DNA of 43,137 nucleotides from Salinisphaera sp. (GTDB taxonomy: Bacteria; Pseudomonadota; Gammaproteobacteria; Nevskiales; Salinisphaeraceae). The notes under the pieces were generated by a model. It saw only the letters and a program-made list of their open reading frames with translations. It was not told where the DNA came from and searched no databases. The translations under genes were made by a program, and so were the position numbers. Position 1 is the first letter of the stretch, and each line of letters starts with the position of its first letter. Positions 28,203-31,703 of the stretch are shown one piece after another. The stretch lies in the NCBI GenBank assembly GCA_027858915.1, contig JAQIBT010000159.1, forward strand, positions 1 through 43,137, given 5' to 3'.

Positions 28203-29297
28203 TCAGCCGAGGCCGGCCAATCCCAACCGCCGCCGGGCCGGCGCTGACACACGGCCCAGCAAAGACTGCGGCTGTTGTCTATGCCAGACATCAGCCGGCA
28301 GCCGCGCGGTGAGTTCGACGAATCGCTCGGCGCAGACCGTCCAGGAGAAATCGAGCGCGAAGGCACGGGCGGCTGTCGGCGACAGCCTGCTCGCGCCGCG
28401 GATGGCACGCGCCAGATCATGGTCCAGACAGGCCACATGGGGCGCCTCGCCCAGTATGTCTTTTGGGCCAGGCACCGGGAAAGCGGCTACCGGCAAGCCG
28501 CTGGCCAGCGCTTCCAGCATCACCAGGCCGAAGGTGTCGGTCCGGCTGGCAAAGACAAACACATCGGCGGCCGCATACCAGCGCGCCAGGGCCTCGCCCT
28601 GCTGCCAGCCAGCAAAGACGACGTCAGGATAGCGCTTGGTCAGCTCTGCCAGCTGCGGGCCGTCACCCACCACCACCTTGGTGCCTGCTACGTCCAGATC
28701 GAGAAACGCACGGATATTCTTTTCCACCGCCACCCGCCCGACATAGATCATCACCGGCGACGCACCGGCCAGCTTGTCGACGTCGGGCATCGGCCGGAAC
28801 AGGCGCGCATCGACGCCGCGCGGCCAGATGGCGGCGTGCGGGATCCCGCGCGCGGCCAGCTCGTCGGCGAGCGTACCGGTCGTTACCATCACTGCCTGTG
28901 ACGCCTGATGGAAGCGGCGAATCACGCCGAACGTCAGGCGTTCGGGCACGCCGAGACGCATCTTCAGATACTGCGGGAAATGCGTGTGGTACGACGTGGT
29001 GAACGCCAGATCACGGCGCCGGCAGTAGCGTCGCGCGGCCGTGCCCAACGGGCCTTCGGTGGCGATATGGATAGCATCAGGGCGGGCATCCGCGATCATG
29101 CGGCCGACCGCGCCGGACGTAGCCAGCGCCAGCCGGATCTGTGGCTCGCCAGGACACGGCAGGCTGGCAAACTGCTCCGGGGTAATTGTGACCACCTGGT
29201 GGCCCATGCGCGACAGCTCGTCGACTACGATAGACCAAGTACGCACCACTCCGTTGATCTGCGGGTGCCAGGCGTCGGTGACGAGTAGGACCTTCAT
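28203..29297 (-). CDS. agt: GT4 glycosyltransferase, Agt/SQD2-like (diacylglycerol glycosylation)
   Basis: The 364-residue protein is a GT4 (GT-B fold) enzyme: MKVLLVTDAWHPQINGVVRT at the N-terminus with a glycine loop, HIATEGPLG, FTTSYHTHFPQYL, the acceptor-side RGVDARLFRP, VMIYVGRVAVEKNI, and the donor-binding TDTFGLVMLEALASGLPVAA near residue 285. This pattern is shared by SQD2, which makes sulfoquinovosyl diacylglycerol, and by Agt, which makes glucosyl or glucuronosyl diacylglycerol during phosphate limitation. ATG 29297 overlaps the plcP-like stop (ATGA), so the pair is coupled. With SqdB next door, sulfolipid synthesis is likely, but the donor cannot be settled from sequence. Confidence 0.85.
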   Translation of the reverse strand: MKVLLVTDAWHPQINGVVRTWSIVVDELSRMGHQVVTITPEQFASLPCPGEPQIRLALATSGAVGRMIADARPDAIHIATEGPLGTAARRYCRRRDLAFTTSYHTHFPQYLKMRLGVPERLTFGVIRRFHQASQAVMVTTGTLADELAARGIPHAAIWPRGVDARLFRPMPDVDKLAGASPVMIYVGRVAVEKNIRAFLDLDVAGTKVVVGDGPQLAELTKRYPDVVFAGWQQGEALARWYAAADVFVFASRTDTFGLVMLEALASGLPVAAFPVPGPKDILGEAPHVACLDHDLARAIRGASRLSPTAARAFALDFSWTVCAERFVELTARLPADVWHRQQPQSLLGRVSAPARRRLGLAGLG

Positions 29298-30187
29298 GCT
29301 GCGGCCTTCTGGCGGCTGGCGTTGTCGGCAGGCATCTCGTGGTCTGCGCCACGTCCCCAGTAGAGCAGCTCCATCTGTCCGGCGAAATCCTCTGTCAGGG
29401 CAGTACAGGATTCCACCCAGTCGCCGTCGTTGCAGTATTCGATGCCGTTGATTGGCTTGCGTGAAGGCGTGTGGATATGACCACAGATGATGCCGTCCAT
29501 GCCGCGGCGTAACGCTTCGTCGGCCAGCGCTTCCTCGAAGCGGCCGATGACGGCCACGGCGTTTTTCACCTGATGCTTGATGAACGCCGACAGCGACCAG
29601 TACGGATAGCCCAGCCGGCGGCGCATGGTATTGAACCAGCTGTTGCCGACAATCACGCCGCGATAAGCATAATCGCCCAGCACGGCCAGCCAACGCGCCT
29701 CGGTGCAGACCGCGTCGAAGGCATCGCCGTGAACCACCAGATAACGCCGGCCGTCGGCGGTGTCGTGCACGCATTCATTGCAGACCTCGATACCGGCCAG
29801 ATCCAGCGGTAGAAAATCGCGCAGTACTTCGTCGTGATTACCCGGCACATACACGACGCGCGTACCGTGTTCGCGGTGCATCGTGAGCACGGCCTGAATA
29901 ACCGCGCTGTGGGTGGCAGGCCAGTAGCAGGCTTTCTTGAGTGCCCAGGCATCGATGATGTCGCCCACCAGATAGAGTATGTCGCAGCGCACCGCGGCCA
30001 GAAAATCCAGCAGCCGCTCGGCACGACAGCCGCGGGTGCCCAGATGAAAGTCCGAAATCCAGACGCTGCGGTAGCGATGTTGCCCGCGGGCGATGGCGGA
30101 AGATGGCCGAGCCGCGGCCGTGATGGGCCGGGTGACTGGCGCATCGCGATCGGCCGGAGTGGTCTCGAGGACGTCGTCTAGGAACAT
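29294..30187 (-). CDS. plcP: PlcP-type metallophosphoesterase (phospholipid remodelling)
   Basis: PlcP is a calcineurin-like phosphoesterase that splits phospholipid head groups to give diacylglycerol when phosphate is scarce. The 297-residue product has every metal motif: SDFHLG (about residue 45), GDIIDAW (about 76), GNHDE (about 117), HGDAFD (about 152) and GHIHTP (about 237), and the COG2908-like sequence RGCRAERLLDFL and YCNDGDWVESCTAL. LpxH, a relative, is shorter and differs in these latter parts. About 38 extra N-terminal residues precede the fold. ATG 30187 has GGAG upstream. Pho-box-like repeats lie 46-85 bases upstream. Confidence 0.85.
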   Translation of the reverse strand: MFLDDVLETTPADRDAPVTRPITAAARPSSAIARGQHRYRSVWISDFHLGTRGCRAERLLDFLAAVRCDILYLVGDIIDAWALKKACYWPATHSAVIQAVLTMHREHGTRVVYVPGNHDEVLRDFLPLDLAGIEVCNECVHDTADGRRYLVVHGDAFDAVCTEARWLAVLGDYAYRGVIVGNSWFNTMRRRLGYPYWSLSAFIKHQVKNAVAVIGRFEEALADEALRRGMDGIICGHIHTPSRKPINGIEYCNDGDWVESCTALTEDFAGQMELLYWGRGADHEMPADNASRQKAAA

Positions 30188-30232
30188 GACAGAGTCTCCA
30201 CGCTGAACCTTGCTGGATTATCGGCGTGGCAT

Positions 30233-30272
30233 ATGACGCGGTCGTGGCGGGCGTCTGACGCGTTGATGACAG
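30233..30272 (-). promoter_or_regulatory. Tandem Pho-box-like repeats facing plcP-agt
   Basis: On the minus strand four heptamers follow one another with an exact 11-base period: CTGTCAT (30272-30266), GCGTCAG (30261-30255), CCGCCAC (30250-30244) and GCGTCAT (30239-30233). The first is a perfect PhoB half site; the first, second and fourth share the GTCA core. The PHO box is known to be two such heptamers separated by four bases. The third unit is poor. Position before plcP fits PhoB activation. Confidence 0.6.
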
Positions 30273-30324
30273 ATCGAAATCGCGATCAGCCACTCTTGCC
30301 AAGCAGAGCGTCAGATTGCCGGGG

Positions 30325-30342
30325 CTGTCACGATCCGGTCAC
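30325..30342 (+). promoter_or_regulatory. Pho box (CTGTCACGATCCGGTCAC) facing sqdB
   Basis: Two heptamers, CTGTCAC and CGGTCAC, are separated by four bases. This agrees with the PHO-box consensus CTGTCAT-N4-CTGTCAY at 12 of 14 positions. A box here would place transcription start near 30365, which argues for the sqdB start codon at 30390 or 30429 rather than GTG 30366. Confidence 0.65.
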
Positions 30343-30389
30343 TGTGACGCGCGACGCTTGATGGTGTGACTACCGACACGAGCTTTTTC

Positions 30390-31703
30390 ATGCGCGATAT
30401 TAATCCTCTGTGCCCCAACACTAGCGCGATGGGCGAACGGATTCTGATTCTCGGCGGCGACGGCTTCTGCGGCTGGCCGACCGCGCTGCATCTTTCGGAT
30501 ACAGGCTACGAGGTAGCGATCGTCGATAATCTGTCGCGACGCATGATCGACGTTGAGCTAGAGGTCGAATCACTCACACCTATTCGACCGATGAGCGAAC
30601 GACTGGACGTATGGGCAGACATCAGCGGCCATGCAATCGATTTCCACCGCTTCGACGTGGCCCGGAACTATCAGCGGCTGCTCAATCTGCTGCGTGATTT
30701 CGCCCCTACCGCGATCGTGCATTTCGCCGAGCAGCGGGCCGCGCCTTATTCCATGAAATCAGCCGCCCATAAACGCTATACGGTCGATAACAACGTCGGT
30801 GCCACGAATACCCTGCTGGCCGCGCTGGTCGAGTCGGGCCTCGATGCACACGTTGTGCATCTGGGCACCATGGGCGTCTACGGCTACGGCAGCGCCGGCA
30901 TGAAGATTCCCGAGGGCTATCTGACCGTGCACGTCGAAACGGACGATGGCCGGTTTGCGGCCGATGAAATCCTTTATCCGGCGCATCCCGGCAGCATTTA
31001 TCACCTGACCAAGACCCAGGACCAGCTCATCTTTGCCTATTACAATCATAATGATGGCGTGCGCGTGACCGATCTGCACCAAGGCATCGTCTGGGGCACC
31101 CAGACCGAACAGACGGCACGAGATGAACGGCTGATCAACCGCTTCGACTACGACGGCGACTACGGCACCGTGCTCAACCGGTTCCTCATGCAGGCCGCGA
31201 TCGGTTATCCGCTGACCGTGCACGGCACCGGCGGCCAGACCCGTGCGTTCATCCATATCCAGGATACGGTGCGCTGCGTGGAGCTGGCGATCAAGAACCC
31301 GCCCGCCGTCGGCGAGCGCGTGCATATTCTCAACCAGATGACCGAAACCCATCGCGTGCGCGATCTGGCCGATCAGATTGCCCAGTGCACGGGTGCCACG
31401 ATCGATTTCGTGGCCAATCCGCGCGTCGAAGCTGCCGAAAACGATCTGCACGTCGCCAACGACACGCTCATCGCGCTGGGCCTGTGCCCGACCACGCTGG
31501 CTATCGGCCTGTTCACAGAAGTCACCGATATCGCCGCGCGCTACGCGCACCGGGCCGATCCACGTCGTATCGCCTGTCGCTCGGCCTGGCGCGCCGACCG
31601 GCAGAGCGCGGACCACAAGAGCACAGTGTCCGCGACGATTCCCGAAAAAAGCCCGATCACGGATGCTGGCAAAGAGCTCGATCAGCTCTGGCAGACAAGC
31701 TAG
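30390..31703 (+). CDS. sqdB: UDP-sulfoquinovose synthase
   Basis: SqdB/SQD1 converts UDP-glucose and sulfite to UDP-sulfoquinovose, the head-group donor of the sulfolipid SQDG. The protein is an extended short-chain dehydrogenase: NAD motif LGGDGFCGW (about residues 21-29), TGYEVAIVDNLSRR, HFAEQRAAPYSM, the catalytic Thr in LGTMGVYG and YxxxK in YHLTK, then TDLHQGIVWG, GQTRAFIHIQDTVRCVELAI and NPRVEAAEND. These are SQD1-specific, not general epimerase, signatures. About 50 residues follow the usual end. The start is uncertain: ATG 30390 has a weak GAG site, ATG 30429 best matches SQD1 N-termini, GTG 30366 is possible. Its end overlaps the convergent mocR gene by three bases. Confidence 0.93.
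   Translation: MRDINPLCPNTSAMGERILILGGDGFCGWPTALHLSDTGYEVAIVDNLSRRMIDVELEVESLTPIRPMSERLDVWADISGHAIDFHRFDVARNYQRLLNLLRDFAPTAIVHFAEQRAAPYSMKSAAHKRYTVDNNVGATNTLLAALVESGLDAHVVHLGTMGVYGYGSAGMKIPEGYLTVHVETDDGRFAADEILYPAHPGSIYHLTKTQDQLIFAYYNHNDGVRVTDLHQGIVWGTQTEQTARDERLINRFDYDGDYGTVLNRFLMQAAIGYPLTVHGTGGQTRAFIHIQDTVRCVELAIKNPPAVGERVHILNQMTETHRVRDLADQIAQCTGATIDFVANPRVEAAENDLHVANDTLIALGLCPTTLAIGLFTEVTDIAARYAHRADPRRIACRSAWRADRQSADHKSTVSATIPEKSPITDAGKELDQLWQTS

Follow-up and report, generated by a model that had tools for sequence, protein, structure and literature searches.

Which membrane lipid could be made by a bacterium that sets a plcP-glycosyltransferase pair back to back with sqdB? The question is raised by three genes on JAQIBT010000159.1, a complete 43,137-base contig (the window) of a 4.3-Mb Salinisphaera genome (G000). 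An earlier note on this DNA had proposed a gammaproteobacterial cassette for membrane-lipid remodelling under phosphate starvation; the genus bears out the gammaproteobacterial origin, and at the level of gene identity the tie to phosphate-starvation lipid remodelling appears sound. We consider it on balance probable that the locus is a phosphate-starvation lipid-replacement cassette with sulfoquinovosyl-diacylglycerol (SQDG) as its end product and the Agt-type glycosyltransferase (GT) as the synthase. PlcP would strip the phospho-headgroup from phospholipid to leave diacylglycerol, SqdB would convert uridine diphosphate (UDP)-glucose and sulfite to UDP-sulfoquinovose, and the GT, an Agt-type GT4 enzyme, would transfer sulfoquinovose onto diacylglycerol, giving SQDG at low phosphate. 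PhoB would drive the plcP-GT and sqdB arms from their common intergenic region. UDP-sulfoquinovose as the GT donor, PhoB control and the three activities in Salinisphaera are what we infer from sequence. The features are as follows.

28203..29297, minus strand: GT4 glycosyltransferase, Agt type, proposed SQDG synthase (364 aa; from Pfam domains, Agt1 identity and Agt motifs)
29294..30187, minus strand: PlcP-type phospholipase C (297 aa; from PlcP identities and low LpxH scores)
30255..30272, minus strand: Pho-box-like direct repeat toward plcP, 68 bp before the plcP ATG (the weaker of the two)
30325..30342, plus strand: Pho-box-like direct repeat CTGTCAC-GATC-CGGTCAC, 104 bp before the sqdB ATG at 30429
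30429..31703, plus strand: sqdB, predicted UDP-sulfoquinovose synthase (from the SQD1 match, identity to Sinorhizobium meliloti SqdB and retained residues)

Identity of the three gene products

The overlapping codons and the divergent SQD1-type gene described in the earlier note were both recovered: the plcP and GT open reading frames (ORFs) share an ATGA, and sqdB runs away from them on the opposite strand. Pfam domains were Glyco_transf_4 plus Glyco_trans_1_4 in the GT, Metallophos in PlcP and Epimerase in SqdB. The sqdB ORF (30366-31703, plus strand) is open from an upstream GTG at 30366; since relatives align only from about residue 14-25 of this long form, the ATG at 30429 (MGERILILGGDG) is the likelier start.

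The best Protein Data Bank match of SqdB was SQD1 (1i24, 326 bits) and the next family reached 42 bits, scores that rule out a GalE-type epimerase; an ordinary sugar epimerase, which the earlier note had named as the alternative, was not what we found. SqdB was 62-63% identical to S. meliloti SqdB, whose gene precedes that of a GT8-like SqdD, the sqdB-sqdD order of the Rhodobacter sphaeroides sqdBDC operon (PMC11346425). Residues T168, M169, Y212 and K216 are retained, and T168, Y212 and K216 correspond to the Thr/Tyr/Lys catalytic triad of SqdB/SQD1 named in PMC4388408. Against the NCBIfam model UDPsulfquin_syn (NF041015), SqdB scored 320 bits, under the 575-bit cut-off. Because all 369 genomes of our class sample and 4 cyanobacterial genomes likewise stayed under this cut-off, it appears to cover a narrower group. 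In three cyanobacterial genomes (G426-G428; L207, L211 and L187), the window-type protein was the sole SqdB at E 1e-50. Another gammaproteobacterial SqdB-like subfamily (L089-L104), 33-43% identical to the window's and mostly starting with a GGDGYLGWPT motif, scored 399-476 bits and thus also under the NCBIfam cut-off. On a Rhodococcus plasmid (L121:427-11173), a window-type sqdB stands amid genes for a SulP anion transporter, a glycosyltransferase and an alkyl sulfatase.

For PlcP, reference locus L119 is presumably the Pseudomonas aeruginosa pair PA3219-PA3218 and L120 presumably PA0842, assignments that rest on an identity match and gene order. Over 239 aa, the window PlcP matched that of the P. 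aeruginosa plcP-agt pair (L119) at 54% identity; its identity to S. meliloti PlcP (L118) was 47%. These two references are mutually 46.6% identical, matching the 46% given for PA3219 and S. meliloti PlcP in PMC8528852, which supports both as characterised PlcP proteins. Scores against two LpxH models were 35 bits for a cut-off of 190 and 42 bits for a cut-off of 134; LpxH, the identity that would have undone the earlier proposal, is ruled out by these scores. Public records label the reference PlcPs (L118:3001-3846 and L119:2192-3004) 'UDP-2,3-diacylglucosamine diphosphatase' (LpxH), a probable misannotation.

The GT was 47% identical to P. aeruginosa Agt1 and 34% identical to Agt2. It has GRVAVEKN and TDTFG (Agt motifs GRVAxEKN and TDTFG) and retains H104, D254, T255, G257 and E262 of the Agt motifs, as judged by motif comparison with PMC8231724. 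In a tree of 79 rows, from which 9 of the 88 collected GTs were excluded as distant or additional, it fell inside the Agt clade (support 99). One excluded GT, L103, is encoded 1.3 kb away from an SqdB belonging to a different subfamily.

The SQDG synthase is SqdX in cyanobacteria and SqdD in alphaproteobacteria. Our presumed SqdX references are 376-377 aa long and of the GT4 family. Each is the sole match of the window GT at E 1e-20 in one of 4 cyanobacterial genomes, and two of the four adjoin sqdB, which is why we take them to be SqdX. Cyanobacterial SqdX-like GTs were just 35-38% identical to the window GT, which together with its placement in the Agt clade rules out SqdX membership. They scored 148-175 bits to it, against at most 35 bits for the next GT4 matches in G000, among which no further SqdX-like GT was seen (the query being the window GT, not SqdX itself). 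SqdD membership is ruled out by negative searches: an S. meliloti query found no match in 30 genomes (a search without a positive control), and a Loktanella query hit the two control records yet gave no match in 11 genomes, G000 included.

Linkage of the GT and SqdB genes

We distinguish two layouts, type A, that of the window (plcP-GT divergent from sqdB), and type B, a GT-sqdB operon on one strand. A genomic-context search, suggested in the earlier note, found the trio in type-A layout at 7 other loci (6 from the genus and 1 from elsewhere in the family, their proteins 56-85% identical to the window's), and this recurrence argues against a chance neighbourhood. Type A thus occurs in 7 genus genomes and in G016 of the same family; Salinisphaera hydrothermalis C41B8 (L145) carries the window's three genes. 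Type B occurs in 6 genus genomes, with the ends of GT and sqdB overlapping or touching, the GT 48-52% and sqdB 64-65% identical to the window's, and PlcP encoded elsewhere (62-63% identical to P. aeruginosa PlcP). The divergent layout is therefore just one of two in the genus, a point that goes beyond the earlier note.

Strong matches to SqdB and to the GT were each present in 13 of the 14 genus genomes (G000-G013) and both were absent from G003; PlcP was present in all 14, G003 included. This joint presence and joint absence indicates that GT and SqdB belong together. At E 1e-25, each of the 13 genomes gave just one GT match, and the window GT is the sole Agt-like GT in G000 (next match E 1e-8). 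Elsewhere in the family, G015 encodes the GT and PlcP but gave no strong match for SqdB, and none of the three proteins was strongly matched in G014. At the six other same-genus type-A loci (L039-L044), a gene for a GtrA-family membrane protein lies between sqdB and plcP (e.g., L039:6400-6909, plus strand), and PF04138 was found in all three of these six genes that were tested; the window and L049 have no such gene. The GtrA-family protein might carry the newly made lipid, or the sugar precursor for it, to the other side of the membrane.

The type-B layout recurs in other gammaproteobacterial families. The class sample of 369 genomes held an SqdB-like match at E 1e-60 in 29, window-type SqdB in 15, the GT (E 1e-60) in 56 and both in 8 (Fisher P 0.0005, relatedness ignored). 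GT and window-type SqdB genes were adjacent in seven of these eight genomes (G000, G002, G013, G073, G180, G197 and G309), with GT-sqdB-plcP in a row in G197 and G309; in G337, about 11 kb separate plcP-GT from sqdB. Linkage to sqdB was clustered in the GT tree, requiring 8 changes versus 21.4 in shuffles, a difference to which near-copies contribute. Among 80 named loci, chosen by SqdB similarity and some limited by contig ends, two (L145 and L152) have an Agt-like GT (at least 56% identical to a reference) close to sqdB, and six have weaker GT4 matches (29-34%) there. At L152:6001-9400 (Ectothiorhodospiraceae), a type-B GT (L256) occurs together with an SqdB that groups near the type-A clade, another gene standing between them, a mix suggesting that cassette parts may have been shuffled.

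Residue signature and Pho-box-like repeats

H occupies position 106 in 8/8 type-A GTs and 4/4 SqdX, and in 0/62 other Agt-type rows. At position 256, L is found in 11/11 sqdB-adjacent type-B GTs and 4/4 SqdX, and in 0/56 others. Outlying rows (L120, L169, L172, L173 and L217) were excluded from these counts; the four of them that are linked to sqdB (L169, L172, L173 and L217) all carry L256, L217 with H106 as well. Type-B kin without an adjacent sqdB (L255, L264 and L280), counted apart, have L, L and Y at 256, the L in G337 (sqdB 11 kb away) and G390 (a contig that, at 3.9 kb, is too short to show whether sqdB is linked) and the Y in G015. A further 29 GTs, from 29 of the 118 phylum genomes with a match (26 beside PlcP, none beside SqdB), have R/Q/K at 106 and F/Y at 256. 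The sqdB-linked GTs and SqdX thus appear to have active-site residues in common that are absent from the unlinked Agts examined outside that lineage. By TDTFG motif match, position 256 corresponds to Phe258 of Pelagibacter GTcp, a residue assigned to the donor site and whose Ala mutant is almost inactive (PMC8231724). Window H104 likewise matches the catalytic His104 of GTcp, whose MshA counterpart contacts the sugar 6-OH (PMC8231724), the site of the sulfonate in sulfoquinovose. As a modest control, 22 nested clades of unlinked GTs were compared, and none of the eight with at least 5 rows shared columns with SqdX in this way. The evidence as a whole favours the GT itself as the candidate sulfolipid synthase over three parallel lipid functions, a step beyond the earlier note. 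In Jeotgalibacillus and Trueperaceae (L217, L169, L172 and L173), a distant GT4 with L at 256 directly follows sqdB, suggesting further sulfolipid synthases there.

Upstream sites were scored against the Pho box consensus CTGTCATNNNNCTGTCAT of PMC8528852 (14 scored bases). The sqdB-side repeat has 11/14 consensus bases (shuffles, P 0.002). At the eight type-A loci, the best sites in the 150 bp upstream of sqdB scored 11, 13, 13, 9, 10, 12, 12 and 11 of 14; at least 11/14 was reached in 6/8 of these mutually related loci versus 1/66 control gene upstreams, and shuffles of 200-bp arms gave P of at most 0.012 in 6/8 (0.042 and 0.226 in the others). The plcP-side repeat also has 11/14 (shuffles, P 0.022), but a clean Pho box on that side was given little weight because in six relatives part of the corresponding stretch seems to fall within the end of gtrA. 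Upstream of ten type-B operons, the best scores were 9-12/14, and the two top-scoring sites lay on the strand that points away from the GT. PhoB controls plcP and sqdB in S. meliloti (PMC10315480), which makes PhoB control of the cassette plausible; PhoB would probably act on sqdB and on plcP-GT alike from the DNA between them.

Rival products, origin and meaning

Several observations weigh against an SQDG product. The GT is an Agt by sequence, and the donors of the Agts characterised so far are UDP-Glc, UDP-GlcA or UDP-Gal (PMC8528852, PMC8231724). No single convincing signature residue runs across type-A and type-B GTs; those common to both and rare in unlinked Agts are just positions 5 and 157, conservative hydrophobic changes, and 7/14 unlinked clades of 3-4 rows share 1-4 SqdX columns by chance. 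Pho-box scores were just 9 and 10 at two of the eight type-A loci. In a phylum sample of 398 genomes (SqdB at E 1e-100 in 27, GT at E 1e-60 in 118, both in 16), 14 of the 16 two-gene genomes keep GT and sqdB apart; going by the match positions listed, the two genes are adjacent in just G000 and G073. A close SqdB paralogue from the same genus (L046:6480-7796) sits in a polysaccharide cluster, adjoining Poly_export/SLBB, Wzz/Wzc and Polysacc_synt genes. PlcP and Agt could accordingly yield glucosyl- or glucuronosyl-diacylglycerol, as in P. aeruginosa, with a co-regulated SqdB serving another acceptor such as polysaccharide. We regard this as unlikely, though it is the strongest of the rivals: it can call on that paralogue, on the 47% identity of the GT to the UDP-glucose-specific Agt1 (PMC8528852) and on the GT and PlcP of G015, but it fits poorly with the joint loss of GT and SqdB, with their linkage, which spans two layouts and several families, with the residue signature of the sqdB-linked GTs, and with the lack of a recognised polysaccharide gene beside the window sqdB (whose neighbours were not searched against a family library).

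Less likely still is a promiscuous GT that makes SQDG plus glucosyl- and/or glucuronosyl-diacylglycerol. Pelagibacter GTcp and Agrobacterium Agt do take two or three UDP-sugars (PMC8231724), and the window GT has no Agt-like companion in G000; P. aeruginosa Agt1, however, is UDP-glucose-specific (PMC8528852), so specificity can evolve, and donor-region residues are altered in the linked GTs. It seems very improbable that the nucleotide sugar formed by the SqdB-like protein is not UDP-sulfoquinovose and that the cassette yields another glycolipid. The NCBIfam score under the equivalog cut-off speaks for it, but it is countered by the identity to S. meliloti SqdB with its R. sphaeroides-like gene order, by the retained active-site residues, and by the three cyanobacterial genomes in which this subfamily is the sole SqdB.

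For the origin of an SQDG-making cassette, SqdBs were placed in a tree of 115 rows, with a single copy of duplicate loci and rows under 400 bits or 280 residues excluded. The window clade lay inside a 25-row group (support 98) alongside SqdBs outside lipid cassettes. Second sqdB genes 70-73% identical to the window's (L046, L045 and L048), from the genus or its order, stand within gene clusters for polysaccharide export, L045 and L048 having the Wzc-like neighbour seen at L046. This hints at sulfoquinovose in a polysaccharide and suggests that sqdB may have been recruited from polysaccharide synthesis. We tentatively propose, as a possibility short of probable, that Agt-type GTs gave rise to an SQDG synthase anew. 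In gammaproteobacteria this may even have happened on two occasions, R/Q106 becoming H in type A and F/Y256 becoming L in type B; both changes match residues of cyanobacterial SqdX. The sqdB gene would have been drawn out of polysaccharide clusters to join a unit for phosphate starvation. The trees hint at separate origins of the type-A and type-B pairings, but approximately unbiased (AU) tests gave no support, a single clade for both types being not rejected (p-AU 0.214 for GTs and 0.291 for SqdBs).

Like the window, the known PlcP-Agt pairs (P. aeruginosa PA3219-PA3218, Agrobacterium Agt, SAR11 GTcp) have plcP directly upstream of a GT4 lipid glycosyltransferase; the P. aeruginosa pair shares the 4-bp overlap and has a Pho box in its promoter (PMC8528852), where the window has candidate repeats. 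The products of these pairs are glucosyl- or glucuronosyl-diacylglycerol, and sqdB does not adjoin them; H106 marks the type-A and L256 the type-B GTs. The alphaproteobacterial sqdBDC genes of R. sphaeroides and S. meliloti encode the same SqdB subfamily (62-64% identical to the window's), whereas their transferase is the GT8-like SqdD and S. meliloti PlcP is encoded elsewhere. In cyanobacterial sqdB-sqdX, sqdB adjoins a GT4 transferase (L207, Leptothoe, and L289), as in the window, and SqdX shares H106 with type A and L256 with type B; unlike the window GT, SqdX has E rather than D at 254 and lies outside the Agt clade, and no PlcP match stands beside it. The available part of PMC4796936 describes plcP neighbourhood types including btaAB and agt and names no sqdB type, and PMC5082522 surveys PlcP and SqdBCD in Pseudomonas genomes. 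We found no description of a plcP-GT-sqdB unit or of an Agt-type sulfoquinovosyltransferase in the open-access papers searched. The parts belong to known families; their linkage and an Agt-derived SQDG synthase are what we did not find described. If the proposed SQDG product is correct, non-photosynthetic gammaproteobacteria would swap phospholipid for sulfolipid by means of a complete three-gene unit, and the Agt-type GT would represent a third kind of SQDG synthase, beside SqdX and SqdD.

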